Shown: positions 31,673 through 61,743 of the stretch, in pieces
How the letters are laid out: every line of letters begins with the position of its first letter
How positions within the stretch are numbered: position 1 is the first letter of the stretch
Source of the DNA: Phlyctochytrium arcticum
Lineage: Eukaryota > Chytridiomycota > Chytridiomycetes > Chytridiales > Chytridiaceae
Direction of reading: 5' to 3'
DNA length: 64,000 nt
Assembly (NCBI GenBank): GCA_025602905.1
Contig: JAHLKI010000030.1
Coordinates: 272,036 to 336,035, forward strand
Translations under genes and position numbers: made by a program
Notes under the pieces: model-generated
Database searches by the model: none
What the model was told of the DNA's origin: nothing
The model's input: only the letters and a program-made list of their open reading frames with translations

Positions 31673-31725
31673 TGTGACAGTGCACAATTCATAAACCTTA
31701 GGTTTATGAATTGTGCACTGTCACA
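31673..31725. repeat. Left terminal palindrome (25-bp arms, 3-nt centre)
   Basis: Perfect inverted repeat beginning TGTGACAGTGCACAATTC, with centre TTA. It could extrude as a hairpin and forms the physical end of the element. Confidence 0.93.
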
Positions 31726-31922
31726 GGGGCGGTTTATCCTATTAGTGAATAAACCATGGTTTACCTATGATTAGGGCTTTTGGGCATTTCTGGCTCTCCA
31801 AACCCCCAAAACCCACCATTAACCTATCAAAAACACCCATTTTTCGACATTCCCATTACACAGCATAACACAGGATAATCCCTGGTTTACACAGGATTAA
31901 AATAATCCTCTACATAATCCAA
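31673..31922 (+). repeat. Outer part of the left terminal inverted repeat
   Basis: Matches the reverse complement of 61,490-61,743 and the direct sequence 63,524-63,770. It contains further short palindromes (TAAACCATGGTTTA; GGATAATCC pairs). The arm resumes at 40,279-40,281 after the Helitron. Confidence 0.88.
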
Positions 31923-32143
31923 TAAGGGCCCCGGGCTGCGCTGCGGGGATTAGCTCTGGTATATGATGGTTAATGCAATGGTAACGGGGGAATGGAGTGT
32001 ACGAGGAAGTTATCATATTAGCGAAAATAAACGAACAGACATGAACGAACAAATTGTCCAGAAAAACGTCATAACAAGTAATACAAACTTGAAGCAAGGA
32101 AAGTTATAAAACGATGAAGAATGGCACTGTCAAAGTAAGGAGG

Positions 32144-33103
32144 CTAATCATAATAATTGCGCAGGCGGTTGTGGGTTGAGAGAGGGGCGTCGTCGTCGTC
32201 GTCGTCTGATTCATGATCGAGCTGCACGACAGGCGACGGGTTATTGGAGCTCCTAGCCATGGAGAAACTGTCGTAAAGCTTTCGAGCCTTGGCAGGCGGG
32301 GTATCCGGGGTATCGTAAACGTCGGCAACAGCAGCAACTTTGGACTTGGGAGGCCGACCACGCCGTTTGCCGCTGGCAGTTAGGGTTGACATCGGGGCTG
32401 GGGGTAAGGGGTGTATGACTGGTTGGGGCTCCGATTGAACCAAGAAGATGGTGCGCGATGGGGGGGTGGCAACTCCAGAGGACGACGAACTTGGCGAAGA
32501 GAGAGAGGTGGAAGAGGTTGCGGTTGCAACCGGCCCGGTAGGCTTCCGGCCCCAAATGTTCGCAGCTTTAGAGGAAACAGCGGTGGTTGAGGTTGAGGGC
32601 AGCTTTCCGGTGCCGCCGTTAGTGTAAAAGTTGGTGAAGGCGATTTCCCCGAGAGAAATCAGCTCACCGACCACCTCGACAACGGTATTTTGGCGGAGAA
32701 CATTGGCTCTTGGTCCCCAACCTCCGGGATGGGTAACTGTGACGGGCCTGAAGGACTCAACGTTGTTTCGATAGACGCGGAATAACACCTTAGCGGACTC
32801 CTTCTGCGTGGAGTGTACGAGTCCGGTGCAACAAACTTGTGCAGGGAAAGGTTCAGCATCGTCGTGGAGGCGGTGGAGAGTATAGATTTGTAATTCGTCA
32901 GTTGTGGGATCGAGGACCGCGGCAACACAGAAGTAGCAGGCATCGAAGACAGGTTCTTCGATACGGTTTTGCTTAACCCACACGGATGCGGGGAGATGGA
33001 GTATGTCGCCACCTACGATGGGGACCACGAGTTGGACATCGAACTTGTACTTGTCCAACGGAGTAAGCTCGACGACTTTGACGATTGAAGTGATGATGAG
33101 CAT
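32144..33103 (-). CDS. AT-hook protein carried by the Helitron, possible OB-fold
   Basis: A 319-residue frame from ATG 33103. The N-terminal 170 residues are beta-rich (LDKYKFDVQLVVPIVGGDIL, EVVGELISLGEIAFTNFY) and could be a single-strand DNA-binding OB fold, comparable to the RPA-like proteins carried by some Helitrons; this is inference from composition. A Ser/Thr/Pro linker follows, then GKRRGRPPKSK, a clear AT-hook, and an acidic tail with ESDDDDDDAP. It is transcribed opposite to the Rep-helicase gene. It may help bind element DNA or be captured host sequence. Confidence 0.6.
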   Translation of the reverse strand: MLIITSIVKVVELTPLDKYKFDVQLVVPIVGGDILHLPASVWVKQNRIEEPVFDACYFCVAAVLDPTTDELQIYTLHRLHDDAEPFPAQVCCTGLVHSTQKESAKVLFRVYRNNVESFRPVTVTHPGGWGPRANVLRQNTVVEVVGELISLGEIAFTNFYTNGGTGKLPSTSTTAVSSKAANIWGRKPTGPVATATSSTSLSSPSSSSSGVATPPSRTIFLVQSEPQPVIHPLPPAPMSTLTASGKRRGRPPKSKVAAVADVYDTPDTPPAKARKLYDSFSMARSSNNPSPVVQLDHESDDDDDDAPLSTHNRLRNYYD

Positions 33104-33980
33104 TATGATGGCGTTGACGGTATGGAAGAGGGAGAAGGGAGTTTGGAATGGCGCTCTTTATGTAGTGAGAGAGGGAGAGGGGCGGAGATAGCAGAATCGG
33201 TTTGAACGACCTACAAAGCCCAATGGGTAAGAAGGGAAATGCAATGTTTGGCCAAGGTCGCTATGTCCAATCTATTATTGGGGAGGACATGTGAGCACAA
33301 ACATGAACAAACAGCACAGAACGGTCTGGAATGGAGCGGATCCTCATAAGATAGAGGCCATTACAGCCTTCGGCCAATGGTCCCATTGTAGGCAGGAGGG
33401 GAAATGCAAGTTTTGCAAAGGTTACATTGTCGACTGATCTTAATTGAAACGAAAGTGACTATTTACGGCAAGAGCCACGGATGCAAATTAAGGTTGTTTT
33501 TCGTCACAAATAATGAAGCAAACAAGTAACAAGCAGCAAAATATGGTAAGATAAACCTTAAAAAAATGGCAGGTACGAGCTGGAACACCAGAGAACATGA
33601 ATAAGATCGAATATATAAGAGGAATATAAATATGAATGCCCTTGTGGAGTACTGTAAGATTGGAAGAGGTACAGAAAGGCCCCATAATTGAAGTAGCTGT
33701 TATTGCAAGGACGATACAGTGAAGACAACGTAATAAACAATAAGTAAATCGGTTAAGCAGAATGCCGCGGAAGCCCAAGGCACGCGCGCAAAGGAACAAT
33801 CCAATGTGAGTGTAGTACATGTAAGCAAGATCCACATCATAGCAGCTAAATGAGTATGATGTTAGTTCGCGTCCTTCAGAAGAGGAATGTGCGCGGCATC
33901 GTCTGCATCGAAATCAGGCGCGACAAAGGCAACGTAAGAACCATGCACCCCAATTTTACACCCCCGATGAACTGGCGACA
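33104..33980. other. Helitron internal non-coding stretch
   Basis: Lies between the divergent AT-hook gene and the Rep-helicase gene and presumably contains both promoters. No gene was recognised in it. Confidence 0.5.
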
Positions 33981-36900
33981 ATGGAGGATAACCCCATCCT
34001 CGGCCCAATAACATCAGAAACCTTGAAGAGGGTGTACAAAGACACAAAGGCGGCGATGTCGGATGCCAATATGTATGAAGAAGTATGCGCAGTTTGCGGG
34101 GCACTGGCCACTCAGTCGCATATCACGAAGATATCACTGCAGTCACCACATGTTCCAATCAGTGCGATGCGTTCTCGACTACGCTGCCCGGAAGATGTCC
34201 CACAACGACTCGCAGATGAATATGATGTCAGCGATTTAGACACGCGGTTCACAGGAATTATGCTATCACGCAGCGGTTTCTCCTCCAATGGATCCGCAGG
34301 AACGTCCGATATGAAGATGCACTTCTGCCACCCGTGCCTGGAATCTTTACAGCGTCCAGCGGAAACACCACCACGCTTTGCCATTGCGAATGGGAACTTT
34401 GTGGGATCCCTGCCGGAGGAACTCTTCGAGCGAGCGACAATGGTTGATTTCAGCATGGCGGCCCCTGCGCAGTGCGCGCATTACATTGCAGTCGTTTACG
34501 GAGGAAGTTTTAATAGATTGAAAGGACACTCGTATGCAATGTTGGCCGATCCTGCACCCCCAGCACTTCTTCTTCCCAGAGATATGGCACCGACCGGAGA
34601 CATATTCGTTACGACTGTTGGTGCGTTCACCAAGGAAGAGTCGATCCGTGTCGCAAAGGAGTATCGCGGTGATCGGGAGACCATATACTCTCTCCTATCA
34701 TTCTATAAAGAGCACAACAGAATATACGAGCACATCACGGTCGACAGCTCCTTACCGGATAAGGTCTTTGAGGAAGCCACCATCATCACCAATATTTCGA
34801 AAGACGACCCGGAGTACGCTGAGATATCAGCAACTCTACAAGCGTCTACCAGTACTCATCGCGTGCCTTCAACACCTGAAAGTGAAAACTACGTGAGCGC
34901 GGAAGTCCAAATGGAAAGCGAAACATCACTTATCATCCAAAGTCGAACGGACGAAAGCAATGGAACCCAAGTAAAACGAGTAATTCAGCTCCTTGTGGAT
35001 CATCAGGACCCCAACCGTGTACTCATGAAAAGGTCAACAACGTTTGTATCAGAAGACGACCCCGAATCCTGGTACTTGCGGATCCCGGAACTTCTGTCAA
35101 CGGTCGAGGAGGACCAAGTGAAAGACGAAAGAATCCGATATCCCTCGAAGAATGGATAGCCTATGTACTCAGGCTTCCCAAGCAGCGATTTGCCAAGCAT
35201 CCAGCATTCATATTGATGGCATTCAACATTGCGGCAAGGACGCGAGCTCGATCGTCAGTATATCTCCGATGTCGTTTGTCGCCCAAAACGGCCGAATTAG
35301 CAGCTACAGTTACGGTGGAGGAAATCCAACGCTACGCCGAACGGGAAGCAGCGAGGACGGAAGCTGCCAGGCGCTCCTTGCCGGTGGCAAATGTAGCACC
35401 CGTGGGCGCAGGAGTTTTGGCGTTGCAGAATGGTGTTCAGGCTGGCATGAGTTCGTACTGGGGTTCTAATGAAGAGCGAGTCGCCGCCATGAATCGTTTG
35501 AACGCGTACACGAATACGCTGGGTCTACCGAACATTTTCTTCACCGTCACACCTGACTCAATGAATTCTTTTCGGGTTGTGCAGTATAGCCAGTACGAAG
35601 GTGCAGACAGGGCGGTGTCGGGAATCAATAAGCGCATTAAAGCAATGTCACGAGAGGAACGGAAGGCGGAGGTTGGCAAGAACCCAATGGCGGTCGCAAG
35701 GCACTTCGAACGCGTCATTGATGTCATTATTTCTGAATTCCTGGGATGGGATACTGCGAAGCAACAGCCGAAACGAGGCGGAGGGGCTTTAGGGGTGATA
35801 AAGGCGTTTTCGGGAGCAGTGGAGACGCAAGGGTCTGGAAATCTTCATGCCCATTTCTTACTATGGGTATATAATCTTCCCTCAACGACGCAGCGATACA
35901 TGGCACTAGCCAGCGGCCCAACAGCATCAATAAGCCTTCAGCAAATAGCGGATTATGCCGCATCTGTGGTCAGCAGCACATCACCGATTCCACTACATCC
36001 TTTCTGTCCTTCATGCACGTCACCGCTCGAGTTCCAACCAATTCCACTACGAGCATATCGTCGGGCGCGTGCGAACTGGTCGGCACCGGTATCAGCAATA
36101 TGTGTCGGGTGCGGGGAAAGTATGTCGGATAGCGATGTAGCAAGCAACTCTGCTGAATATTTTGCGACACGGAGCGGCATTTTGAGCGTGGATCTGTGGA
36201 CACAGACGGATGTTGATTATGCAAACTGCACTTGGGATCCTGTTCCATTAGAGTCTATTATTGAACCACGATGTGCAAAAGATGTACTCAACTTTGAGAA
36301 GAGTCTGTTCGCGTATCAAGAGCATTCGTGGAAACACGCTCGGAGTTGCTACAAAAAGAGTGTCCGCACCCCCAGTGGTACCTATTGTCGGTTCTTGAAA
36401 CCAGAGAACCCAGTTGCCAGCACGCAAGTTTCAGCCATGACAGTCTCATTTCAACGCCAGAATGGGTCGCTGTATTTGAACAACTACAATCCATTGTTTG
36501 CCGGCACGTTTCGTTTTAACCACGACATACGCCTGTTGCTGGGAGGGGAAGCGGCCGATATCAAGCAGTATGTCCTTAAATACACGTATAAACCACAAGT
36601 TCAATTCGAAAAGATTCACACAATCTACTTATCTGCGCATCGCAAAAGTCAGCAACGGGAGAACAACTCCGTGGATGGTGAAGAGACTCCTGCATGGACC
36701 AAAGGGTTTCGTCGAATGAAACGGCAGGTCACGGAATTGACCGGCAAGATGGAAGTGACGTCCACGATGGCAGCGCTCTATCTTCTCCGGAAGTCGGCAT
36801 TCTACGAGTCGCACGATGTTGAAAACCTGTACATAAAATCGATCATTAACGCAATGACACTTGAGGGAGAAGTAGATGTGGTCTTTGGGCGGGGAGCTGA

Positions 36901-39571
36901 TGGCGCGGACGATGAAGATGCGGGCATCGGTGAAGAAGAAAGCATGGGAGATAACAGTATAGGCCCCGCGAAGAAATTGATAGCCGTCAACAAAGGGAGC
37001 GACTACTTGGGCCGACCTGCATCCAACGACTTTGAGAGTATGTGTCTATACTCCTTCACTGCCGAGTACATGAAACGTAAGACCAGGAACGTGGCAGGAA
37101 CGCACGAGTTCATACAAGGGCACCCACAACGGAGATCGCACCGATTGGAGAAGCGCAAGAAGACGGTGTTTGTCAATGTAGTTACGAAGCGAATAGCTGA
37201 TTTGACAAGGGATGATGTGACCGAGACCGAACGTGAGCGCACGTTCCAAATACTTCTGTTTCTCTTCAAACCGTATCGGACGCTAGCGTGTTTGAAGACT
37301 TCCAGCAGCTGGGAACAATCATTTTACGACTATACGGCACTTGACGACGGTTCCGCCAACTTTTTAGCGCTAGGACGATTCCTGCGCAACACGGAGGACC
37401 ACTACCTCGGTAAAAGACGTGCAGCGGAGCAGGGGCGTCGCAACAGAGAGGCCGAATTGCGCGAAAACCATCCCGAACTTCCCGTGATATTGAGGACATC
37501 AGACGAAACGGAATGCATGGATGGGGATGACAGCGTCTCGGAGACATCGGACACGTCCAGTGAGGCGAGTTACGAAGATTTTTACCCAGAGGACGACGAG
37601 GAACCCATGACGGATTTGAGGGACGTGCCTTGCACTCAAGAAGCCATGGCGTTCGCTACAACATTGGGATCGGTACCGACGTGGCAAACAGAGATCGGGC
37701 ATGTCAGCAATCTTCACGAATTTGATGCAGCGGCCAACGAGGTGGAAGATCCCGTCACTACGGAGAACGCCATGCCTGACCGACGGGCACGAATTTATGC
37801 ACTGTTTCCAACGATGGCGACTCAAATTGAACACTATGAATGCTGCTTGGGAGATTCGGAATGGAGAGAGGCGCATGCAAACTCGCCCAACGCACAGGTG
37901 GACGAATTCCCAACCATTGCACAAGTATCGCAACATTTCGGATTGACCAAAGAGCAGCACCGTATCTTCGTTCTGTTTGCGGCAGGCTTGATATTCGCAT
38001 TTGCAGCAGAAGATGATGTGTCTCTAAGCAAATCGAGAGGGACCAACGGCAGTTCATGTCGTGTGACAGCATCTATGTGGGGGCAGGCAGGTACCGGCAA
38101 AAGCTTTATTCTCAAAGCACTTCTTCACTTGGCAAGAAGCTGGGGGCGGCCTGATGCAGTGATGACAACTGCACCGACAGGGATGGCAGGCGCAAACGCG
38201 GGGGGAGTACATCTACACAAAATGTTTAACTGGACTACCATATGTACACGTCGCACACGAGTCACTCCTACCGAAATACTCCGATTTGCACCTTTGAAAT
38301 TACTGATTGTTGATGAGACAACACTTCTCAGTAAGCAGTATGTCGCGTTGCTAGAAGAAACCCTGAAGATGGTGATGGATAAACCGCACTTGCAGATGGG
38401 TGGAGTGTCGATACTTATCTGTGGGGATTGGTACCAGTTATCAGCATGGTCAGGAACTAAACTATACACCCGATTGAAGGCTTCGGATGCAGCCAGAATA
38501 GCAACGGGCCATCGGATATATCACGGAATTCGTAATGTCTTCTTTTTGACCCGGAACATGCGACAAGGCGCACAAACTCCGTATGCGAAACTGATGACCA
38601 ACATGCGAACCGGTCACTTAAGCAAGGACGACATAGCACTGCTTAACGGACAAGTGTTGACGCCAGGAGAACGACCAATTGTGAATGATACGGAGCTTTT
38701 TCGACCAATTCTTACAACAGCCAACTTCCATCGCGTTGCATTTAACAGGGGTTGCATAGAGAAATTCGCGCTCGGACGGCAGGAGGTCGTGTATCGATTC
38801 AGCGCTGTCGTAAAAGCAACGCGAAAAGGAAATGTGACGGCAGAAGAGAGGTGGAGTTTGCGAAAGTTGCCAGATACATCAACAGGTTCATTGGCCATGA
38901 CGCTGGATCTGTGTGTTGGAGCTCCGGTGCAAATCACTAAGAACGTGGATCACAGAAGAAAATTGCTGAATGGAGCGCTCGGTACGGTAGTAAAAATTCA
39001 GTTAAACGATGCGGGCACATTGACAGAGTCGACACTTGGTAACGGAACACGCCTTTTGATCTCCGACAAATTGCCGGACATAGTTTTCGTGGCGCTGAAA
39101 AATCACGAAAATGTTCAACTACAACCAGGTCTACCGCGCGGCGTAGTGGGGATCCGTCCGTTTCAAGCAACCAGTGCAGTGCAAGTGAAGCTACCCCACC
39201 GCAGTTTCAAGATTCGCATCACCCAGCTGCCTTTTGTGTTAGCGTTTTCTTTGACTGTCGACAAAATCCAAGGACTTACCGTACCTGGCGTCGTATTAGC
39301 ACCGCTACTGACACCACTTCGGAAAAGTCCGCAGCGCGCCTCTATGTACGTTGGTTGGTCACGGGGAACGACACTGGAAGGACCCATGGCGACTCGAATA
39401 TTACAGCCGCTGACTGCTGCCGACATAGAATACTTCAAACCAAGTCCCGAAATTGTCAAAGAGCTAGAGCGATTAAAACGACTAGCAGGTCAGACGGACG
39501 TTAGGATGGAACAGTTTGTACGCACTGCCAGCACAAAAGAGAGTTTCATCGAACTGTTCGGGGATGACTAG
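33981..39571 (+). pseudogene. Helitron Rep-Pif1 helicase, one frameshift
   Basis: The protein initiates rolling-circle transposition (HUH nuclease) and unwinds DNA (SF1 helicase). The first frame (33981-35159) has CAVCGALATQSH, LPEELFERATMVDFSMAAPA and RLKGHSYAMLADP, a DUF6570-type N-terminus. The frame then shifts: the second frame carries NGRGGPSERRKNPISLEEW and QRFAKHPAF, upstream of its first ATG at 35216, so the break is near 35,095-35,102. The Rep part has NPMAVARHFERVIDVIISEF, HUH motif GNLHAHFLLWV and YVLKYTYKP. The helicase has Walker A GQAGTGKS, VDETTLLSK, CGDWYQL, RNMRQG, DKIQGLTV and YVGWSRG. It is complete apart from the frameshift. Confidence 0.88.
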
Positions 39572-40260
39572 TAGAACTCATGTAATATAGAAGTAGTTTC
39601 AATCAGATTTTTATTCTTGGAAGGTACAAGTAGCACTGTGGGTCACTCTATGGTAAAGTACCTAAAAAAGTTGTATTGGTCAGACCTTCGCGCAAGTGGA
39701 TATTGAAGGACGCGATGGAATACTTACAGGATAACAGACAAGTTGTATTATCGCCCAAGTGGATATTAAAGGACGCGATGGAATCCTTACAGGATAACAG
39801 ACAACGACCAGCGGGAAAGGAAAGTGAGGTATGATATCAAGGATCGCTCACAACGCACCAACATTGAACGGGACCGGCACCGTGAAGATTCATCGCAAAA
39901 GGCACGAGCAAAAACGGTGGCAGTGAGGTGGACCGTGCTTACGTAAGCAAAATTTGAGGAACTCTGCTCCGGACTCAGCTGAGAAAATCCCACGCGCGTT
40001 TGAAAATTATTTGAGCACACTATGATGCTGACCACCCAAGGAAAATCATATGGGATGCAAGAGAAAAAAATGACCGATTTTCCGAATGTCTTAAAAAATT
40101 TCAGCTCGTAGGAAAAAGCGTGGGATCTGGAGAAAATGCAATTTGATCTACGAAAAAACAAAAGAAATACCCCCATTCTCCATGGAAACAAGGGTCTGGG
40201 GTGACTGGGCCAGGGGCGTTTCAAAGGCGACACTTGGTGGTGCCCCAGACCCCTCTAAGA

Positions 40261-40278
40261 CTCTGGTATATACCAGAG
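40261..40278. repeat. Palindrome at the Helitron right end
   Basis: CTCTGGTATATACCAGAG is a perfect 18-bp palindrome two bases before the junction with the host arm, in the position of the 3' hairpin of Helitron-type elements. Confidence 0.85.
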
Positions 40279-40470
40279 AACAATCGAGTCAACACTCCTA
40301 AACCGAATCATCTCGCTCCACAATTCATCGAGTGCCGCCCTGCCTCCGGCACCACGGGAATTCTAATCTTTACTCAAGAACAACAGCATCTCAATCAAGT
40401 GGGATGTTCTCCAGTATTCACCGGGATGTCACCATGTATTCATGTATTCATATATACAAAGAAATTATAT

Positions 40471-40815
40471 TTATGTATCCACATTTTCTTCCTTCTTTAT
40501 TTCCTCAACTAAACTACCCATATCTAGTACATTCACAGTCTTCCACCATACATCCGACTCTTTCAGATACTGTTCCCTTATGTCTGGCGGTAGAGCATTG
40601 GTATCTACTCGGTTCATCTTTCGAATATTGAATTGTAACTGTTTCAGTATTCGTCCTTTTCGGATCTTGACTTCTGTTATTCCTTTCGCTTTCATGCTTG
40701 TCTTGACACTCGCCAGAATATCCGTGTGCCTTTTGACTATTGCTGCGGCTTTTTGGTATTCTTCTGATTGATCCAAGTCAATAAACTCTTCGGCTTTCTT
40801 CTCTATGAATTCCAT
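40471..40815 (-). CDS. Small helical protein, left copy (114 aa)
   Basis: ATG at 40815 is chosen because the right-arm homologue starts at the same residue (MEFIEKKAEEFIDL). The protein is charged and predicted helical (EYQKAAAIVKRHTDILA, IRKGRILKQLQFNIRKMN, DIREQYLKESDVWWKTV) and ends EEIKKEENVDT. It differs from the right copy at about ten positions, mostly conservative, which suggests purifying selection. It is the outermost gene of each arm. No family was recognised; a structural or DNA-end-binding role is conceivable but unproven. Confidence 0.7.
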   Translation of the reverse strand: MEFIEKKAEEFIDLDQSEEYQKAAAIVKRHTDILASVKTSMKAKGITEVKIRKGRILKQLQFNIRKMNRVDTNALPPDIREQYLKESDVWWKTVNVLDMGSLVEEIKKEENVDT

Positions 40816-41859
40816 TATTCGTTGTAGATTGCTGGATTTGTGGGGGAATTCCTGCAATGCTTCGCAAGTCTTTTTATGTCTTTGGCAAATTGCATATCGA
40901 TCGATCTGAATTGCCAAAGACTGGCGAGAAATTATCAACCATGTGAAACCTCTATTTATCTCACAGTCTCTTTGGTCTTTTACAACTTGCATATCGATCG
41001 ATCTGAAAATACTGCTTAAAGACTTTGTGAGTAGAAAAACCGGTCGATATGTCGGCACCTTTAGAACTTGCTGAATATATATGTGTACTTTTCTAGCCTT
41101 TTCAGAATTTGCCCCAAAATGCCACAGATTTCACCAGTTTTCAACGGCTGCCTCTGGCATTTACGGGAATTCTATTCTGTGGTAGTTTTGTGGGGGGTAT
41201 TATCAGCCATCTCCAGGATGGGGGGTATTATCAATCATCTTCACAAGTCAAAATACTGTTTAAAGAAATTGGTAAAAAGCACAGATAGATTTTCCACCTT
41301 TTCCATCTGTGCTCTACATCACTTTCTCCCCACTTTTTCACATCCATACAATCTCGACATTATGGAAAGAACGGTGTATAATATTCTGCAACTTTATGGA
41401 GAAGCACAGATGGAAAATGGTGAAAATCTATCTGTGCTACTACATATTTTTGATTCTTTCTTTTTTCTTTTTCTTTTGACTAGAGAGAATAGAGAGAAGA
41501 GAATAGAAAAAGGAATGGGTTTTATGGAGAGGCACAGATGGCACAGATAAAAGGTGATTTTGAAGTCGGGAAAAAAAAAGGGGAAGGTTGAAAAAAATAT
41601 ATGAAAAATATCCACTTTTATCTGTGCCATCTGTGCCTCTCCATGCCCGAGTCAAACAGTATTGCCTTATTAATGAACAGTGGAACAAATTCATGGAGTG
41701 GCACAGATAGATTCAAGAAAAATCTATCTGTGCCTACATCTGTGCTTACATCTGTGCCAATTTCTGGAGAACCCGATTTCTGCTTCTTTTTGTATGGGTT
41801 TCTATCATTTTCTATCAATTTCTGTTCTATTTCACATACTTTACACTTTTTCTATCATT
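40816..41859. repeat. Non-coding block with CACAGAT hairpins, left arm
   Basis: Holds many copies of GCACAGAT/ATCTGTGC. The strongest structure is a 29-bp perfect inverted repeat, 41,524-41,552 against 41,616-41,644 (ATGGAGAGGCACAGATGG...), around a 63-nt centre. Smaller ones pair CACAGATAGATTTT with AAAATCTATCTGTG near 41,281-41,440 and 41,701-41,735. GCATATCGATCGATCTGAA occurs twice, near 40,890 and 40,990. The block is repeated in the right arm beside the helicase 3' end and could be a replication origin or an old hairpin-type insertion. Confidence 0.75.
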
Positions 41860-44449: not shown

Positions 44450-44485
44450 GTTATCTTGATTAATGTATAAAACATAGGATTGAAT

Positions 44486-48290: not shown

Positions 48291-48347
48291 CCACAAATTT
48301 TCTTATTGTTCATAATCATTAAACCATTCGTTTAACCATTAAGAACA

Positions 48348-51982: not shown

Positions 51983-52518
51983 AATGAACTGTTGTACAAA
52001 TGCATATATGGAGCGGAACGATACACTCTTACTCACTTATATCCGTGCGCCTACACGGAAAGTAGATGGAAAGTGTGAACATATGTAACGCGAGAATGGA
52101 TGCTGAAAAGTGAGGGTAGGTGAAAAGCGAAGAAACTGCGGGTGTAAATCTGATGAAAGATTCATGTAGTGTAACCCTTGTAACAGTATGGTACTTGATA
52201 AGTGTGTAGAGAATAAAGAGTGTTCGTATTGTATGTTGGTAAAAATGTAGCAAGTGAGGCGTGTCTGTGGGAAAACTGCGGGTAAGATTTCTTGTTTCGT
52301 CCCGCCCGGTGAACAGTGTCGAGAAGGTAGCGTTTTGAGTTGATAAAGTCATATCAATTGACATTTTTTGTATGTTTTGACGGTTTATCAACACAAACGG
52401 GGTGAAAACTGGGTGAAACATGTTTTTCACACATTCCCAATTTGGCATAATTAGAATGACCCTGAGTTGTCTCGATGAATTCAAACATTTTAGTTTTCTA
52501 AATTTCTGAAATCATGGA
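51983..52518. other. Non-coding stretch
   Basis: About 530 bp between the Crinkler-like gene and the truncated integrase. No gene-like frame with recognisable features was seen. Confidence 0.45.
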
Positions 52519-53822
52519 GTGCTGCTCACTGGTTCGCAGAGGTCAGTTTTGAATTCGTTTCTAAAATACAAGCCCGAATGGCAAACACACATGAAACCTC
52601 CAAAGGCATCGAGTATCGCACCATTGCAAATAACGAAACCGGGCTATTTTCAAGCAGATTTAGTATCAATGCGGACATATGCCGATCGCGGATATATTGG
52701 TTTTTTTCATATGATTGATGGGTTTACCAAAAAGGGGTACGCTGCATCGCTAAGAGGAGAATCGGAAGAAGAAGTAACGGAAGCCTTGAAAAAGTGCCTT
52801 GAGAAAGCCCGACGAGAAGGGAAAAAAATGTCCAGTTTGCAAACTGATCAAGGGCGCACTTTCAACAAATCTTCAAACAAGAACTCAAAAACCGTGGAGT
52901 GAAACATTTCTATTCACAGGCTGCAAGGCCGCAAAGTAATGCATTTGTGGAGCGCCGTGGAGGCGATATAAAAAGACAATTATACCAGATTATGGAGTCA
53001 AATAATGATAAAAAATGGGTGAATTATCTGCAAACGGTTGTCGATAACATCAATTCCGTGAAATCTTTGTCTACCGGGTATTCGCCCGATCAGATGGAAA
53101 CAGGAGATGAAAATATTTCAGAAGAAGCAAAGGCTCGTATTGAAAAGAATATCGCCGGCCGTTACAAGACGAGGCAAGTTTCAACACCTCTTTTCGTAGG
53201 TCAAAAGGTGAGAAAAAAACGGATATTAAAAGGCGGTTTAAAGAAACCGGGTTTGCTCGGTTTTTGGGATAAAGAGATATATACTGTTTCGCAACGATTG
53301 GATTCAACTCATCCGAATTTCATACCATCTTATCGAATCTCGGCTGCAAATGGAACCGTTTTGTATGGGCGATTCCCCAGAACCTCGTTGTTACCAATCC
53401 CCCCAATTCTATCGAGTGATGAAGTTGTGAATGTCGAAGATGATCCCGAAGCGGAAGAAGAAGAAGAAGTAGTACCAAATGATTTGATTAACAACCATGA
53501 AGAAGAAGAAGAACATGAAGAGGAAGAAGATGAAGAGGAAGAGGAAGACGAAGAACCTGCCGCAGAAGAAGAGGAGGAGGAGGAGGAAGAGGAACCTGAA
53601 GAAGAAGAAGAAATTGCTCAACCTACTCGTCAATCTTTACGACAAAACCAACCAGATTTCTATGAGGTTGATTTCATAGTGGCTAAACGAAGACGACGAC
53701 GTCGAGTCGAATATCCAGTGAGATGGCTAGGATATGATGAAGAACAAGACACTTGGGAACCAATTAGAAATTTACGACAAGTTATGGACTTGGTTAAAGA
53801 ATTTGAAGATGGGGCAAGATGA
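52519..53822 (+). pseudogene. RVE (DDE) integrase with chromodomain, truncated and frameshifted
   Basis: Integrases of this fold join element ends to target DNA and leave short duplications. The catalytic core shows GYFQADLVSM (first Asp), IDGFTKKGYAASLRGES, SLQTDQGRTF (second Asp) and NAFVERRGGDIKR (Glu). Between the second Asp and the Glu the frame shifts near 52,862: the first frame ends at 52,902, and the other continues QIFKQELKNRGVKHFYSQAARP into the 52899-53822 frame. The N-terminal zinc domain is missing. A long Glu/Asp tract (53,450-53,620) precedes a chromodomain YEVDFIVAKRRRRRRVEYP and RWLGYDEEQDTWEP that could tether insertion to histone marks. It resembles Polinton or chromovirus integrases; no reverse transcriptase is nearby. 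Confidence 0.86.
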
Positions 53823-53887
53823 TCAAAAATTGAGATACAATATATTGCCAGAATCCGACATTGAGAAAATTACTACTATTGAACAAT

Positions 53888-55131
53888 TCATTCATCCATT
53901 ACTTCACTATATTTATCGAGCAACTCGAATAATGTATCCATTTCATTATCATCAAGATCATCCTCCATAGGATCCTCTACGTCGCTAAAAAGATCTTTAT
54001 CGTCGTCGTTATGAACCAAACTTTGACATAATGAGCATTTACCGTCAACGATATCTTGTAAATCTTCGCCCCTTATTCGTTGGTTGCATTGCACACAATG
54101 AACTCGCTTGTTGTAGAAAATTTGATGAATCGGATATGAATGGTTCATTTTCTTGACAATTGCGGACTGTGCGATAACATCCCCATGATCGGCTTCAGAT
54201 AGTTTCATTGAAATGGATCTTCGGAGATCATTGTTGCTAATGGGAACACCAAAATATGTTTTCATGACTTTTGACAACGCCAAACCGTGTGTGTTACTCC
54301 ATTGTGCAATGTTGTCGTTTGGAACATCGTCTTTGTTCCGTTGCTTTCGAATAAGATAATCCCAATTTTCAATATCTTTGCCGCACATAGTGTACTTAGA
54401 TATTCTTTCATATCATTATCAAGAACATGAATATATGTTTCGTTACCTTGTTTGCGTGATTTTTTAACATGGAATACACCATGTTCCATATCATATGTAA
54501 CAAGATCTTGTTCGGTGCAGTTTCTGTAACGGGCATGGAGAAGATCCGTTCTCAATGTTTGATCAGTTGACTCTCCATACAAGCCAGCCATTATGAGATA
54601 TGACGCATCGGAATAATGTGCCTTGTCGAGCGCGTCTTTGATTGCTTTTTTCAATTTTGCATTGAGAACGTCGGCATGAATAAAGCGCGCCTGTTGTTTA
54701 TCAGTCATAATGAGATCTTCTTCTTTGTCAATTTTAGGAATAATTGCCTTACAGTTTTGATGATGCAACTCTTCATATGGTTTGACAAGTTGATCTTTGA
54801 AAAGATTCAACTTTTCGTCATCTTTCAACCCTTTAAGCGATTGCTGAATAAGCGCTGGCTGATCTTTGATATATTTATCAATAATGGTGATTTTGTCGGC
54901 ATCTGTCATCCCTTTGAACAGAGCCGAAAGAGCCTTTGTCAGATTTGAAGCGGATGATGTGTTGGGGTATGCCGCATTGATTCTGGCAATAGCAGTAGCG
55001 GGGTCAAATAATAGGTTATCGGAAAAGAATTTCAATTCACCAAGCCGGTTGATCCCAGACATATAATTCTTCTTTGACGAATCGGAGAGACGGGCATTTG
55101 ATAGATAACGTTTGGCAGTTTCGATATTCAT
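53888..55131 (-). pseudogene. Tyrosine recombinase with zinc ribbon, right copy, frameshifted
   Basis: ATG 55131 (MNIETAKRYLSNARLSDSS). Same domain order as the left copy: core-binding domain, QTLRTDLLHARYRN, then across the site broken in the left copy (VTYDMEHGVFHVKKSRKQ). A one-base loss relative to the left copy after TLCAAK shifts the frame; 54388-53888 continues with IENWDYLIRKQRNKDD, NNDLRRSISMKL, MNHSYPIHQIFY and a CVQCNQR...KCSLC ribbon. It has about three quarters amino-acid identity to the left copy. The two lesions are at different places, so the two genes were inactivated independently. Confidence 0.85.
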
Positions 55132-55195
55132 TGTTCTTAATGGTTAAACTAATGGTTTAATGTTTAATGATTATAAAAAAGAAGAAAATTCACGT

Positions 55196-55204
55196 CCTTA
55201 TATA
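55196..55204 (-). promoter_or_regulatory. TATA box of the right tyrosine recombinase
   Basis: CCTTATATA reads TATATAAGG on the minus strand, about 65 nt before the ATG, the same arrangement as the left copy. Confidence 0.7.
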
Positions 55205-55430
55205 ATGATATATTTCACATCGAGAGTGGAGATTTCGATGTAGAATGAGGCCCCTTTTGTGCGATGTTTCATGGGAAGGAATGATGAAGATATTGATTGA
55301 TAATGATGTAGAATAATATGTACAATGCAAGAAATACAAAGGATAGAACAATGAATATGCCGATACACTCGAAGATGACATAATATATACAAGGAACACG
55401 GCTAAACTATTTAGACTAAACTTTCCCAAC

Positions 55431-56444
55431 TTACACTAATTTTTCCGGACGAGACGCTTCCGTTGCAAGTTCATTCAACAATACCTGCATACCTTCTTCA
55501 TCCAACCCTTCCCGCATCGCATGCACAACCAAGAGGTGGAAAGGTTTCTCAATTCGGAAAATGGGGAGACGTTCAACTGTGGGTTTCTCACGTTCCTCCG
55601 CGACCCATTCTGCCAAAAGATCCATGCTGTGATTGCTCATATCGCGGACAAGAGCACCGTTCGAGAACAAAGCGAGAAGGGCAATCGTTCCCATACCATC
55701 CTTTCCAACTAGTTTTTGCCAGGGTGTTGCCGAGTTGTTTTTCTGGTAGTATTTAGGATAGGCAATGTAGCGCATCACTCTGAACAGTTTCAAGTGGTTC
55801 GCAGTGTACTCATCGGTTTCCTCCTGTGCTTTGATGGACTCGTCACCATCAAGACCGCAATTCCTCATAAAACTGACAACCAACTCCAGGCGGATCTTGA
55901 TGCTTCCAGGTTGGCTTGTAAAATATCTGATGTGGTCGCGGATCATCTTGAGTTTGTCAACTTTTGCCCGAGGTTTCTTGCTAGCGGGTTCCGTGATCAC
56001 GTCGGTATCAGCGGCAACATTGCCAATCAATTTCTGCAAGGCGTCGGTGGTAATTGACTTTCTTTTCACTGCGGTTTGCGATGGTGGAACAATGCCGAGA
56101 AAAGGAATCGGTGCCGGAACCGATCCAGTTGCCGATGCCGATGCCGGAGGTGTCAAAATAGGTGGGACACCAGTTGAAGACGATCCGCCGGGTGTAGTTA
56201 AGTTAGATGGTGGATCGATGGCTTTCCTGTTGATCTTGGCAGATAATGTGGCATTGTCTGCTTCCAAGATTGCCTTGTCGTTCAACAATTTGCAAAACAA
56301 GGCAATGAGAGACTTCGTTCCGGGGTGCTTTTGTGCAATTTCTTGTAATTCCTCCTGTGAGACCAAAGTATCGTAATTTGGGAATTCGGCGACTAGGTGA
56401 AGGAACTTGATGATGTCCATTGGCGCGGCAGTGGGTCTCGTCAT
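55431..56444 (-). CDS. Conserved element protein, right copy
   Basis: About 337 residues from ATG 56444 (MTRPTAAPMDIIKFLHLVAE). The first 90 residues are helical, then a Pro/Ser/Ala-rich linker, a basic KKPRAKVDKLKM patch and a helical C-terminal domain with DLLAEWVAEEREKPTVERLP, aligning with DLLQQWLDEQRRKPTNEQIP of the left-half gene. Overall identity is low, so the two halves diverged long ago or came from different lineages. A TATAAAAG box lies about 90 nt upstream (near 56,537). Confidence 0.68.
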   Translation of the reverse strand: MTRPTAAPMDIIKFLHLVAEFPNYDTLVSQEELQEIAQKHPGTKSLIALFCKLLNDKAILEADNATLSAKINRKAIDPPSNLTTPGGSSSTGVPPILTPPASASATGSVPAPIPFLGIVPPSQTAVKRKSITTDALQKLIGNVAADTDVITEPASKKPRAKVDKLKMIRDHIRYFTSQPGSIKIRLELVVSFMRNCGLDGDESIKAQEETDEYTANHLKLFRVMRYIAYPKYYQKNNSATPWQKLVGKDGMGTIALLALFSNGALVRDMSNHSMDLLAEWVAEEREKPTVERLPIFRIEKPFHLLVVHAMREGLDEEGMQVLLNELATEASRPEKLV

Positions 56445-56717
56445 GATTGCAATAGGGAGGTTCAATCACTGTTTGGTGGTTTGTTGAGTGTTTGTGGTTT
56501 GTTGTAATGACGGAAAAACCAAACAAACAACACATTCTTTTATACTTCTCTGAAACCGGTGAAATGTTTGTGGTAGTTCTTGCTTTTCGCGGTCAAGATC
56601 CTCAAAATACCGCTGCCGTTGAGGGTTTTGAGGATCTTGACCGCAACGGTACAGTTTACGGATATCTAAGTTTACGGATATTGCGGCTTACCGCATATTT
56701 AAACATTGTGGTATGCT

Positions 56718-56963
56718 ATGAATAGTATCAAAATGTCGACACCACTAGATTGCGAGCCTTACATTGTTAAATTTGACATTAATGGAATGCCATTAATTCC
56801 CAATGATAGTAGATTGTGTAAATCTTGGGATCCAAGCAATGAAAAATGTTCTATTGTTATTCCCTACATGAAATGTCGACAAAGATGCTATAATTGCTGG
56901 TTACAGCATAAGGACTCAAAACTTGTGGATTTCAAGTTGACAAGAGATGAAGAAGTCGCTTGA
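56718..56963 (+). CDS. Small Cys-rich protein, right half
   Basis: 81 residues from ATG 56718 (MNSIKMSTPLDCEPYIVKFD). Six cysteines, including a cluster KCRQRCYNCWLQHK that may bind zinc. It sits in the mirrored place of the left Cys-rich gene but is not clearly homologous. Ends EEVA at 56963, close to the convergent helix-turn-helix-like gene. Confidence 0.5.
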   Translation: MNSIKMSTPLDCEPYIVKFDINGMPLIPNDSRLCKSWDPSNEKCSIVIPYMKCRQRCYNCWLQHKDSKLVDFKLTRDEEVA

Positions 56964-56981
56964 GCGCGTTTCTGGCTTGTT

Positions 56982-57212
56982 TCACTCGAATGGTATCAAG
57001 GGCGCGTTTTTGGCTTGTTTGGATTGCTTCGGTTTTCTTAATATCTCTGCACGAATTTGAGTTTTCTTCTCTGGGTGCTGAATCATTTTATGAGCAGTAA
57101 CATGACTAATATTCAATTTCCGGGCTAATTCTCGGATACTGGATGCTTTGACGGTCTTTTTTTCACCCAGAAAATCAATAATGGCCACATAATCAAAAGT
57201 CGATGCTGGCAT
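56982..57212 (-). CDS. Small helix-turn-helix-like protein, right copy
   Basis: 76 residues from ATG 57212 (MPASTFDYVAIIDFLGEKKT). KASSIRELARKLNISHVTAH is a clear helix-turn-helix-like pair, followed by a basic tail (RAEILRKPKQSKQAKN). It is transcribed divergently from the primase, as in the left half, with TATATATAAGG at 57,244-57,254 on its strand. About 40% similar to the left protein. Confidence 0.7.
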   Translation of the reverse strand: MPASTFDYVAIIDFLGEKKTVKASSIRELARKLNISHVTAHKMIQHPEKKTQIRAEILRKPKQSKQAKNAPLIPFE

Positions 57213-57327
57213 TGTTCAATGTTGAAGTATACTCACTGCTTTCCCTTATATATATGCATTTAAGAATTTCGATGTGCGTCTCATAGGTCGATGTAAATGA
57301 TACATCAACCGATGTGTGTGCGTTCCC

Positions 57328-57336
57328 TATATAAAG
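57328..57336 (+). promoter_or_regulatory. TATA box of the right primase
   Basis: TATATAAAG, 45 nt before the primase ATG at 57381. Confidence 0.7.
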
Positions 57337-57380
57337 ATATAATTTAAGTTAGTTAGTAGGATAATATTTTACGACCAAAT

Positions 57381-57995
57381 ATGTATTTCAAAACTTCTTA
57401 CCTTAATACCTCAAAAAAGTTTCCGGTTGAAACCTTTGACTGGACTGTTAACCAGTACCTAGAAAATCACGAGAAATACCCCCATCTCGTTGACTTTTTT
57501 GCCAAAAGTAACAGCATTGAAACAAAGAAAATCAGACCGTTCATTGACTTCGATATGTCATTCAAATCAAAAGAAGCGCTTCCTTCAGATGATGAAGAAC
57601 TACAAATTCGAGAAGCCCTTAAAGAAATCTTTCGCAGTCTCTTTTTAAATACCAATATAAAAATTCTTGCTGCATACCGCGAAAAGGGGTTTGCTACCAA
57701 CAAGAAACGAGATAATCAATCTGGAGAATATATCGAACATGGAAAGTATAAGATTTCTTATCGGCTTTATGCAAACAATGTGTTCACTTCTCGTCAAGAC
57801 CTGTCAAAGCATCTAAAGGGTTTCATGCCTGATTTATCAACATTTCCAGAATGTGCACGCAATTATTCCTTTGACAATGATTCATTATTTGACACCGGTG
57901 TTTACTGCGATAATAACCGTTCTATGGCATGTGTTGGGAAAACTAAATCGAAGTATGATAATCGAATCTTGTATCAAGAGGACGATAATGAATGA
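57381..57995 (+). CDS. AEP-type primase, right copy
   Basis: 204 residues, start ATG 57381 (MYFKTSYLNTSKKF). Motifs KIRPFIDFDMSF, GKYKISYRLYANN and TGVYCDNNRSMACVGKTKS match the left copy, with about a dozen substitutions concentrated between residues 8 and 185. It overlaps the helicase ATG by 8 nt (ATGAATGA), exactly as in the left arm. Confidence 0.87.
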   Translation: MYFKTSYLNTSKKFPVETFDWTVNQYLENHEKYPHLVDFFAKSNSIETKKIRPFIDFDMSFKSKEALPSDDEELQIREALKEIFRSLFLNTNIKILAAYREKGFATNKKRDNQSGEYIEHGKYKISYRLYANNVFTSRQDLSKHLKGFMPDLSTFPECARNYSFDNDSLFDTGVYCDNNRSMACVGKTKSKYDNRILYQEDDNE

Positions 57996-59970
57996 ACCTT
58001 TGGAGAATTATCTTATCCAGAATGTTCAACCCGATGACGAACCTGTCAAATGGAGTCAACACACAGCGTTCAATACTAAGAAGAAATCCATAGTAAATGT
58101 TCCCAAAGCGACCATGAAAAGGGTACATGAAGATGATGAAGATTCCGACTTTGTACATGTAGAATCAGATGATCCAATGCAAAAGAAGGCGAAAGTAGCA
58201 TGCCCAGAAACTGTAGATTCCGAAAAATGTCCACAGATTGTACAAGATGAGGTTATAAAACTGATTGTCGAATCGTTCAACATTAGAAAAAGCGATTTAG
58301 GGGATACTTCATTACTTGAACACGCTTTTGTCACATACATCAAAGCGCCATACTACTGTTTGCATACCAAATGCGAACATTCTGAATCCAATCCCAAGAT
58401 GTATATCTCAGTATCTCGCAAAAAGGTGAAATATCAGTGTGATGTTTGTGACAAATCATTTGTTAAAACCCACGATAACACAATTATTGCTGATCATTTT
58501 CCCGAGAATGTCAAGGCGTTGGTTCAACCTGGAGAAGAACTTGACCTACGTAAGGCGCGTAAGATAATGGAAAAACAAGGAAGAGAAATGTTGATCCACT
58601 ATTTGAATCATTACTTTGCAAAAGTCACTCATGAAGATGCAATATGGTATTGTATACGAGATTCAATTGATTCACCATGGCTAGTTCGGGGGAAAAGTAC
58701 TTTCTTGAGTCATCTTGAGAATAAATGGTTCATGTACGAGTATGTTGTAACGGATGAAAAGGGCAAGAGTCAAACTGTTGAAGAGAAATTCAAATGTGGG
58801 GATTGGATCTACTGTCCTAATACTCATACCTTCAAGAACGTACGCTTGAATCCGCAGCATGTAGGAGATGTTGAAGGTCAATATATCAATCTCTTCCAAG
58901 GGTTCCAAGCAAAGCGGGTAGAAAATTGTGATATGAGCAAAATCCAATTTCTACTTGACCATTGCAAGAATATCATATGCAACGGCGATGAAACATTCTA
59001 TGATTGGCTCATCCGGTGGCAGGCACATGCCTTACAGTTCCCTTGGATCAAGATGGGAACAGCGCCAGTAATTATTGGACCACAAGGCACTGGAAAGAAT
59101 GCATTCTTTGACTTCATTGGTAATTACATTTATGGGAAAAGTCACTTTTTTTCCACTAGTTCCATGGATCAAATTACCGGACGATTTAATGCCCATCAAG
59201 CAAAATGTCTATACACTGTAGCAAATGAAGTTACGTTTGCGGGTGAACACAAACAGAATAACATACTGAAGTCTAAAATTACTGAAACACAGATTCCATT
59301 GGAGAAAAAAGGCATTGACCTCCTTCTTATTGATTCGTATATGCATTTCGTGTTCTTGTCAAATAATAAAGATGCAATTCGTATCGAAGATGGCGGCGAT
59401 GGTGATAGAAGATTTGGTGTCAAAAGAACCGCAAGCAAACCATCAAGACAGTATTTCAGAGACTATTTTGCAAGGTTAAATGGTGAAGAAATGCGTCAAG
59501 ATGTTGCCAATCATTTCTACACATATTTGCTCGATATGGACTTGTCTGACTTCGATCCACGAGAAGTCCCCATGACAGAGGAGAAGCGGGAGATGGCAGT
59601 ATTCACAAGATCACCTATCGACCTATTTGTGGATGAATTACTGGATGGCAACATCATCAGGACCCCTTCTCGAAAAAAATGGATTCCTGGAAAGTATGGA
59701 AAGGATGATAAATGGATACCAGCACATGAAGTAGATTTTGAAGCCGAATTCTTTTTGCCAGGGGTGGAATATGAAATTACAATGGACGAATTGTTTGGTC
59801 ATTATCACAAATTCTGCTATGAAGACAAACAAGGTGGCAGAATGTCAGAACAATTGTCAAAGATTGGATTCTCAAGATTAATTCGAAAGAAGGTATGGAT
59901 AAAGAATGCTAGTGAACACAGACATGGGGGCACACCCATAACATTAAAAATAGAGAGAATTGCGGACTAG
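57988..59970 (+). CDS. SF3/D5-type replicative helicase, right copy
   Basis: 660 residues from ATG 57988. All motifs of the left copy are present (Cys/His segment, IGPQGTGKNAFFDF, FLSNNKDAIRIEDGGDGDRRF). Only one residue differs (HEVDF instead of HEVDI). The reading frame extends 45 codons upstream of this ATG without stop, overlapping the primase, so a minus-one frameshift could fuse the two products. Both copies are intact, unlike the recombinases and integrase. Confidence 0.92.
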   Translation: MNEPLENYLIQNVQPDDEPVKWSQHTAFNTKKKSIVNVPKATMKRVHEDDEDSDFVHVESDDPMQKKAKVACPETVDSEKCPQIVQDEVIKLIVESFNIRKSDLGDTSLLEHAFVTYIKAPYYCLHTKCEHSESNPKMYISVSRKKVKYQCDVCDKSFVKTHDNTIIADHFPENVKALVQPGEELDLRKARKIMEKQGREMLIHYLNHYFAKVTHEDAIWYCIRDSIDSPWLVRGKSTFLSHLENKWFMYEYVVTDEKGKSQTVEEKFKCGDWIYCPNTHTFKNVRLNPQHVGDVEGQYINLFQGFQAKRVENCDMSKIQFLLDHCKNIICNGDETFYDWLIRWQAHALQFPWIKMGTAPVIIGPQGTGKNAFFDFIGNYIYGKSHFFSTSSMDQITGRFNAHQAKCLYTVANEVTFAGEHKQNNILKSKITETQIPLEKKGIDLLLIDSYMHFVFLSNNKDAIRIEDGGDGDRRFGVKRTASKPSRQYFRDYFARLNGEEMRQDVANHFYTYLLDMDLSDFDPREVPMTEEKREMAVFTRSPIDLFVDELLDGNIIRTPSRKKWIPGKYGKDDKWIPAHEVDFEAEFFLPGVEYEITMDELFGHYHKFCYEDKQGGRMSEQLSKIGFSRLIRKKVWIKNASEHRHGGTPITLKIERIAD

Positions 59971-60947
59971 AATGATAGAAAAAGTGTAAAGTATGTGAAA
60001 TAGAACAGAAATTGATAGAAAATGATAGAAACCCATACAAAAAGAAGCAGAAATCGGGTTCTCCAGAAATTGGCACAGATGTAAGCACAGATGTAGGCAC
60101 AGATAGATTTTTCTTGAATCTATCTGTGCCACTCCATGAATTTGTTCCACTGTTCATTAATAAGGCAATACTGTTTGACTCGGGCATGGAGAGGCACAGA
60201 TGGCACAGATGAAAGTGGTTTTTTTTTCATATATTTTTTTCAACCTTCCCCTTTTTTTTCCCGACTTCAAAATCACCTTTTATCTGTGCCATCTGTGCCT
60301 CTCCATAAAACTCATTCTCTTTCTCTATTCTCTTCTCTCTATTCTCTCTAGTCAAAAGAAAAAGAAAAAAGAAAGAATCAAAAATATGTAGTAGCACAGA
60401 TAGATTTTCACCATTTTCCATCTGTGCTTCTCCATAAAGTTGCAGAATATTATACACCGTCCTTTCCATAATGTCGAGATTGTATGGATGTGAAAAAGTG
60501 GGGAGAAAGTGATGTAGAGCACAGATGGAAAAGGTGGAAAATCTATCTGTGCTTTTTACCAATTTCTTTAAACAGTATTTTGACTTGTGAAGATGATTGA
60601 TATTACCCCCCATCCTGGAGATGGCTGATAATACCCCCCACAAAACTACCACAGAATAGAATTCCCGTAAATGCCAGAGGCAGCCGTTGAAAACTGGTGA
60701 AATCTGTGGCATTTTGGGGCAAATTCTGAAAAGGCTAGAAAAGTACACATATATATTCAGCAAATTCTAAAGGTGCCGACATATCGACAGGTTTTTCTAC
60801 TCACAAAGTGTTTAAGCAGTATTTCCCTATCGATCTGAAGAACCCAGAAAAGTAGATCGATATGCCATTGCCAAAGACATAAAAAAGTGCAAAGCATCGC
60901 GGAAATTCCCTCAATATTCAGCAGAATTCCACACAAACCAGCGAATA
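59971..60947. repeat. Non-coding block with CACAGAT hairpins, right arm
   Basis: Inverted copy of 40,816-41,859. The long inverted repeat is at 60,186 to 60,306. A CGACAGGTTTTTCTACTCA site lies near 60,785, matching those at 44.8 and 45.0 kb; the left arm has its diverged inverse near 41,030-41,050. Confidence 0.75.
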
Positions 60948-61292
60948 ATGGAATTCATTGAGAAAAAAGCCGAAGAGTTTATCGATTTGAATCAATCAGA
61001 AGAGTACAAAAAAGCAGCAGCAGTAGTTAAGAGGCACACGGATATACTGGCAAGTGTCAAGACCAGCATGAAAGCAAAAGGCATTACGGAAATCAAGATA
61101 CGGAAAGGACGAATACTGAAACAGTTACAATTCAATATTCGAAAGATGAACCGAGTAGACACAAATGCTCTACCACCAGACATAAGGGAACAGTATCTGA
61201 AAGAGTCGGATGTATGGTGGAAGACAGTGAATGTTCTAGATATGGGCAATTTGGTGGAGGAAATACAGAAGGAAGAAAAGTTGGATACATAA
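60948..61292 (+). CDS. Small helical protein, right copy (114 aa)
   Basis: ATG 60948 (MEFIEKKAEEFIDLNQSEEY), same length as the left copy and about 90% identical; it ends EEIQKEEKLDT. Substitutions are mostly conservative (D/N, Q/K, I/V). Outermost gene of the right arm, 450 bp from the end of the element. Confidence 0.7.
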   Translation: MEFIEKKAEEFIDLNQSEEYKKAAAVVKRHTDILASVKTSMKAKGITEIKIRKGRILKQLQFNIRKMNRVDTNALPPDIREQYLKESDVWWKTVNVLDMGNLVEEIQKEEKLDT

Positions 61293-61692
61293 ATATAATT
61301 TCTTTGTATATATGAATACATGAATATATGGTGACATCCCAGTGAATGCTTGGGAACATCCCGCTCGAATAAAATGCTGTTGTTCTTGAGTATAGACTAG
61401 AATTCCCGTGTTGGCGGAGCCAGGGGCGGCACTCGATGAAAGATGGAGCGAGATGATTCAGTTTATGAGTGTTGACTCGATTGTTGGATTATGTAGAGGA
61501 TTATTTTTAATCCTGTGTAAAGGATTAAACCAGGGATTATCCTGTGTAATACTGTGTAATGGCAATGTCGGAAAATGGGTGTTTTTGATAGGTTAATGGT
61601 GGGTTCTGTGCAGTTTGTGAGTGTTGAAAATGCCCAAAAAGCCCTAATCATAGGTAAACCATGGTTTATTCACTAATAGGATAAACCACCCC

Positions 61693-61743
61693 TGTGACAG
61701 TGCATAATCATAAACCATAGGTTTATGATTATGCACTGTCACA
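61693..61743. repeat. Right terminal palindrome (24-bp arms, 3-nt centre)
   Basis: Perfect inverted repeat TGTGACAGTGCATAATCA..., centre ATA. One more base pair (C/G) flanks it outside the element. Both arms differ from the left-end palindrome in matching ways. Confidence 0.93.

Follow-up and report, generated by a model that had tools for sequence, protein, structure and literature searches.

A palindrome-ended integrated element with no detectable capsid gene, and its capsid-bearing relatives, in the chytrid Phlyctochytrium arcticum

A Polinton-like virus (PLV) integrated in the genome of the chytrid Spizellomyces punctatus has been reported, three elements of fungi or oomycetes are described with short duplications of 5-7 bp (PMC7805220), and the integrated elements of this group are generally 15-30 kb in length. 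PLVs in which an AEP-SF3 fusion replaces the family B DNA polymerase (PolB), and rve integrases that carry a chromodomain, have already been described (PMC11071308, PMC11071296). Here and below, what is said of published systems draws on parts of the cited papers. We describe an integrated element of the chytrid Phlyctochytrium arcticum that lies in a stretch of 64,000 nucleotides (the window; positions 272,036 to 336,035 of JAHLKI010000030.1) at the end of contig C30, where C-labels denote contigs of the 31.5-Mb, 91-contig genome of this fungus. An initial annotation of the window had taken the combination of an integrase and a primase-helicase with no visible capsid or PolB gene as the sign of a distinct class, a claim that goes too far given the earlier descriptions of PLVs. 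We favour, with moderate confidence, the view that a capsid-less member of the chytrid Polinton-like (MELD-type) virus group integrated here and that this copy is decayed; the element would have had hairpin ends and replicated through dimers.

The element spans positions 31673-61743 of the window and measures about 21.7 kb once an inserted Helitron is subtracted. The large primase-helicase element with a target duplication proposed by the initial annotation is confirmed: it begins with a perfect palindrome of 53 bp (31673-31725), ends with a near-perfect one of 51 bp that has one central mismatch (61693-61743) and is flanked on the left and right by the target-site duplication GACCG (31668-31672 and 61744-61748). 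Identity between the outer arms is 98.5% over 3459 columns. The left arm lies on the forward strand in an outer part before the Helitron (31673-31925) and an inner part (40279-44452), and the right arm (57378-61743) lies on the reverse strand. The gene order is end open reading frame (ORF), PrimPol/SF3, orfA, recombinase-like gene, Crinkler/STAND, integrase, recombinase-like gene, orfB, PrimPol/SF3 and end ORF. The mirrored pairs have diverged to different degrees, with the recombinase-like genes 77.7% identical as DNA and orfA and orfB 24% identical as protein (E=6e-10). Because the gene build is symmetric, the sequence points to an old inverted dimer whose centre is present once, an architecture on which the initial annotation made no comment.

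The window element is an insertion that made a staggered 5-bp duplication of its target, as read from the flanks of occupied sites. All five elements compared have such duplications (GACCG, GAGCC, AACCG, AACCT and GAGGA), and a length of 6 bp fits none of the five. At a sixth pair of palindromes, C13:606105/628141, TGGTT lies outside both members, and the inner side of the left one is unlike that family.

A second full copy, C58:50572-68509, is 17.9 kb long and flanked by GAGCC. It has the same ORF set as the window element with the centre reversed, but only a single recombinase-like gene and a single gene of the orfA type. No significant match to a capsid gene, nor any significant remnant of one, was found in this copy, and the best hexon match in the window element (50 residues, E=0.07) was not significant and was taken as chance. 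PolB gave no significant match in either complete copy; the protein-primed form has 14 matches in the genome, none of them on the contig of the window. The initial annotation was therefore right to assign the element an integrase gene and its own primase-helicase with no detectable capsid or PolB gene, and C58 extends this to a second copy. The capsid-less gene set recurs in two complete copies that occupy different sites, and together with the pattern of integrase partners set out below this indicates that the lack of a capsid is not one accident. A primase-helicase ORF of 922 residues in the right arm of the C58 copy (C58:64206-66971) has a PrimPol part 85% identical to that of the window element, followed by a part matching the SF3 helicase of the window at only 40% over 290 columns, which means that the helicases of the two C58 arms differ.

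Capsid genes are present elsewhere in the same genome. In C6 a protein is encoded next to an SF3 gene, and it has relatives in a number of chytrids (Spizellomyces, Powellomyces, Geranomyces, Gaertneriomyces and Thoreauomyces), one of which is recorded in the database as 'hexon' of Powellomyces chytrid fungus MELD virus 5. A search of PDB sequences with the capsid profile gave no meaningful match, and fold searches with a model of this one relative, P0016 (pLDDT 79, pTM 0.81), decided the assignment: they matched it to PBCV-1 VP54 (E=7e-17) and to the capsids of Sputnik and mavirus, among others, and P0016 is predicted to fold as a double-jelly-roll major capsid protein. The C6 protein has 58 matches in the host genome. 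A second and remoter hexon class (27-32% identity) lies less than 8 kb from PolB genes at C25:411495, C54:13338, C7:987073 and C3:282466, so that the genome holds elements of both the PolB and the PrimPol type.

Hexon-bearing intervals are tied to other elements of the genome through their type of end, 5-bp duplication, SF3 helicase or integrase. The element C44:44542-67207 has the duplication GAGGA, arms 99.7% identical over 3342 columns, an SF3 gene and a frame-broken hexon; its ends match those of C24:303568-328046, which has no hexon match, with 88% identity across 370 columns and 97% across 273, and with SF3 DNA at 80%. Across 550 columns the SF3-bearing terminus at C24:422712 shares 89% identity with the terminus of the hexon-bearing interval C4:875379-900156, and its 62-bp palindrome is identical to that of the hexon-bearing interval C4:900741-925880. 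Integrases that share 60-78% identity with that of the window element lie 0.5-2.6 kb from hexon genes at eight loci (C17, C23, C6, C3, C2 and three in C4). C52 carries a terminus related to those of the window, a broken hexon and a penton-like ORF on one contig, with the Helitron that is also in the window element in between; the terminus and the capsid genes likely belong to one element, about 2.7 kb of this stretch not having been read. Within the capsid-bearing element of C44, positions 53751-62059 hold a tandem duplication of 4155 bp at 99.98% identity.

The partners of the integrase differ between loci in a manner that is suggestive of mutual exclusion between capsid and Crinkler/STAND genes, as judged from gene neighbourhoods. 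Among 27 close integrase loci, a hexon gene lies within 6 kb at nine and a Crinkler/STAND gene at seven, with both at none and neither at 11 (hypergeometric P = 0.036 for zero overlap); widening the range to 12 kb gives 12, seven, zero and eight, respectively. A distant integrase class (26-33% identity; 24 loci) has 15 loci with a hexon, none with STAND and nine with neither, so that the 51 loci of both classes divide into 24 with a hexon, seven with STAND, none with both and 20 with neither. Seen from the other side, seven of 18 merged STAND loci have a close integrase within 6 kb. The first count used 31 of 117 integrase matches, 48 of 58 hexon matches and 16 of 27 STAND matches; the integrase matches left out were extra pieces of the same genes, chromodomain-only matches and the 26-33% class, which was tallied separately, and a recount with all hexon and STAND matches altered no figure.

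The palindromic ends form a large set. The pattern TGTSAYAGTGC-N(20-81)-GCACTRTSACA occurs at 113+13 sites genome-wide, and a reversed-pattern control occurs at none. We examined 83 palindromes, comprising 81 of the 126 sites and two near-matches (C30:335559 and C24:328000), 71 of them in a first set and 12 later; C30:320342, in which the motif is absent, and eight of the 13 sites of the smaller group were left out. The examined sites were drawn from a listing of 50 of the 113, from all 28 members of one class and from a few further scans. The arms are perfectly paired in 76 of the 83, and seven of 2224 arm pairs are unpaired. Among the 71, there are 24 distinct arm sequences, and related palindromes differ on both sides at 165 positions versus on one side at 13. 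One family has a loop of three bases that, in the inward direction, reads GTT at C78, C91 and C52, and AAC at C7, C10, C18 and C23. Two elements are inverted dimers; C24:303568-328046 (24.5 kb) consists almost entirely of two inverted halves of 12.2 kb that differ at seven of 12191 positions, one of these being at the loop centre. The 51-53-bp tips suggest traces of a hairpin-ended linear replicon, and copying round a hairpin would jointly explain pairing without sequence conservation, both loop orientations and the inverted dimers. Nested palindromes at C6:97321-133912 and C15:723430-729592 share an identical spacing of 6.16 kb, a pattern that would fit the movement or duplication of a composite element.

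Under the reading we favour, the chromodomain rve integrase would have performed the insertion, and the extrachromosomal form would be a linear molecule with its 51-53-bp tips folded as hairpins. The primase-helicase would initiate copying and a host polymerase would extend; passage round the hairpin would restore perfect palindromes in either loop orientation and yield head-to-head dimers, and the integrase would insert the unit at its TGT/ACA ends. A capsid-less element could spread within the genome in this way, possibly with help in trans from relatives that have capsid genes and similar ends, although packaging in trans by such kin is speculative. A telomere-resolvase route for the ends, by analogy with bacterial protelomerases and phage N15, is possible. 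In a bolder form, to which we give little credence, chytrid PLVs would possess flip-flop hairpin telomeres and inverted dimers, and the capsid-less Crinkler/STAND branch would be a satellite using the ends, the integrase and perhaps the virions of its kin. The boldest version, which is speculative, would make the recombinase-like gene a eukaryotic hairpin-end resolvase acting on palindromes of 46-102 bp, as TelN acts on telRL.

A number of observations weigh against the favoured reading. The window copy is itself inactive, given its broken integrase, PrimPol/SF3 and recombinase-like frames, and the identification of the PrimPol, tyrosine-recombinase, Crinkler and STAND parts is weak. The evidence for palindromes and flip-flop loops comes from integrated copies; because the search fixed the outer 11 bp, the inner pairs alone are unbiased (about 1076 of 1857 in the first 71 palindromes); 45 of the 126 sites fall outside the examined set, at least one of which, the long C4:1158961, is visibly imperfect; and some copies, such as those in C7 and C23, are probably segmental duplicates. 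A telomere resolvase of the known family (PF16684) has no match in the genome. As for the integrase partners, 11 of the 27 close loci have neither, and at 11 of the 18 merged STAND loci no integrase of the close class lies within 6 kb.

The element could be a dead provirus, namely an ordinary capsid-bearing chytrid PLV that lost its capsid genes by decay, so that the capsid-less state would be biologically meaningless. Several genes of the window copy are frame-broken, as decay would have it, and capsid loss in two hexon-less loci does look like decay because they retain capsid-gene remnants: penton-like gene remnants in C13 (E=3e-26) and a doubtful penton-like remnant of 25 residues in C24 (E=0.003). 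The same remnants, strong in C13 and doubtful in C24, weaken the candidacy of these two loci as true capsid-less lineages. The window element and C58, however, are separate insertions with different duplications and share a capsid-less gene set with no significant capsid remnant, and Crinkler/STAND genes adjoin the integrase at seven of 27 close loci, never alongside a capsid gene; we therefore consider simple decay unlikely. That the element is packaged in the capsids of its relatives, as a phage-inducible island or a transpoviron would be, is to our minds a similarly unlikely account, for the sharing of integrases can be explained by common ends with no packaging involved. The initial annotation had gone further and proposed a distinct class, naming a capsid or PolB gene in intact relatives as the finding that would instead indicate a known virus-like class. 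For the wider group this is largely what was found, in capsid-bearing elements of the same genome, a relative of whose capsid protein is predicted to fold as a double jelly roll. The capsid-less state does stand in two copies, neither of which has a significant capsid or PolB match, and to that extent a fungal transposon not derived from viruses would fit. The capsid-bearing elements nevertheless share the kind of end and the integrase or helicase, and both AEP-SF3 and rve-chromodomain proteins are known from PLV/MELD viruses; for these reasons we place the element in a capsid-less branch of the virus-like group and regard an unrelated class as very improbable.

A separate question is whether the palindromes are paired integrase sites, their symmetry kept by selection or by repair of chromosomal cruciforms, and not hairpin telomeres. 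The conserved outer 11 bp (TGTSAYAGTGC) start with TGT and finish with ACA, as integrase ends do, and the failure to find a resolvase of the known family agrees with this account. Selection on a binding site would, however, fix sequence and not pairing, and the inner arms differ among families yet remain paired and occur with both loop orientations. We accordingly find the account doubtful and retain hairpin copying as the preferred explanation.

The end ORFs of the window element lie at 40471-41130 (reverse strand) and 60816-61292 (forward). In the left arm the SF3 helicase (DUF5906; 41860-44013, reverse) is separated by a broken frame from the PrimPol-like part (43835-44509, reverse), and the right arm holds the corresponding PrimPol-like part (57360-57995, forward) and SF3 helicase (57817-59970, forward). 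The centre comprises orfA (46984-48093, forward), a first tyrosine-recombinase-like gene in two overlapping frames (48336-49507, forward), a Crinkler-type N-terminal domain (50025-50408, forward; E=0.0049), a STAND-type P-loop NTPase (50399-51982, forward; nSTAND3, E=2.5e-4), an rve integrase in two parts (52510-52902 and 52848-53822, both forward, the second with an acidic stretch and the chromodomain), the mirrored recombinase-like gene, again in two overlapping frames (53888-55143, reverse), and orfB (55431-56465, reverse). Frames are interrupted in the integrase, in PrimPol/SF3 of both arms and in both recombinase-like genes.

Against Pfam cut-offs, the SF3 and chromodomain matches are above threshold, rve is just under it, and PrimPol, Crinkler and STAND are below it. 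The SF3 part of an AEP-SF3 replication gene is thus present by Pfam profiles, and the AEP (PrimPol) part is represented by sub-threshold PPL4 matches. The AlphaFold model of the primase-helicase was poor outside residues ~384-865, the PrimPol part included, and the fold comparison covered residues 398-861. The mirrored genes are presumably tyrosine-recombinase-like, as their motif suggests; searches of Pfam, PHROGs, NCBIfam and PDB sequences gave no support for this identity. Among 20 ORFs scanned, some of which belong to the host or the Helitron, no packaging ATPase was matched by Pfam profiles, none of these being PLV-specific, and the single SF1-type helicase match, PIF1, is that of the Helitron. 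Metagenome contigs (P0005, P0006 and P0007) encode SF3 relatives at 35-45% identity, and therefore the group probably exists outside P. arcticum; an IMG/VR scan with exact short patterns found no relatives of the primase-helicase, and one for the GAC-class palindrome likewise gave no matches.

The Helitron (31926-40278, forward; 8.35 kb; DUF6570, Helitron_like_N and PIF1) is not part of the element: left-arm homology breaks off at 31925 and picks up again at 40279, and the insert encodes a Helitron rep/helicase protein, its edges being accurate to a few bases. The same Helitron adjoins the capsid genes of C52 (C52:2993-11000) at 99.7% identity along 5.6 kb and 99.3% along another 2.4 kb, a closeness that suggests recent Helitron activity. 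A third terminus of the same family as the ends of the window element (63524-64000, forward; palindrome 63524-63574) starts 1.8 kb past it and is probably the start of another copy, ended by the contig end. Related termini stand near contig ends in C44, C64, C91 and C7, and therefore the assembly probably under-represents these elements.

In the portions of the literature searched, we found no paper that reports hairpin or palindromic termini for PLVs, such elements in P. arcticum or a capsid-less Crinkler/STAND branch, and the string 'palindrom' is absent from the available text of the PLV and virophage papers PMC12220804, PMC10120064, PMC10328495, PMC7805220, PMC11071308, PMC11071296 and PMC8547959. 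Relative to that literature, the palindromic ends of such elements and the capsid-less Crinkler/STAND branch are new. Hairpin ends, if true, would answer how PLVs with no protein-primed polymerase copy their ends, and would tie them to telomeres of the poxvirus type. With more than 100 palindromic ends in one fungus, and with end types and integrase shared between its capsid-bearing and capsid-less elements, the passage of a virus into a transposon or satellite becomes testable in a single organism. That Crinkler/STAND genes repeatedly adjoin the integrase suggests one route by which such genes spread.

Cryptons are transposons in which a tyrosine recombinase is the sole mobility gene and no target duplication is made; the 5-bp duplication and the rve integrase rule out membership of the window element. 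With PLV/MELD viruses it shares integration, inverted repeats with a short duplication (here of 5 bp), an rve integrase and the SF3 part of an AEP-SF3-type gene, the PrimPol part being sub-threshold. The hallmark double-jelly-roll capsid gene was found in relatives of the same genome and not in the window element or C58, which differ further in having Crinkler/STAND genes and 51-53-bp palindromic ends. Polintons/Mavericks and adintoviruses have the rve integrase in common with the window element, and adintoviruses also its chromodomain (PMC11071296); unlike Polintons/Mavericks, for which a target duplication of 6 bp is given, it has 5 bp and neither protein-primed PolB nor capsid. The relation to the primase-polymerases of phage NrS-1 and African swine fever virus is at the level of the gene only. 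Transpovirons are likewise capsid-less linear elements linked to viruses, and encode a Tlr1-like SF1 helicase (PMC11071308) where the window element has SF3. Poxvirus hairpin ends exist in flip and flop forms and give rise to concatemers (PMC8956199), and telomere resolvases are known as bacterial protelomerases and from phage N15, and have been proposed for phaeoviruses (PMC3558466, PMC13236599), the telRL palindrome being 56 bp long (PMC13236599). Unlike these hairpin-ended replicons, the chytrid elements are known from integrated copies alone and have no resolvase of a known family; like them, they combine terminal palindromes of about 50 bp with two loop orientations and head-to-head dimers.

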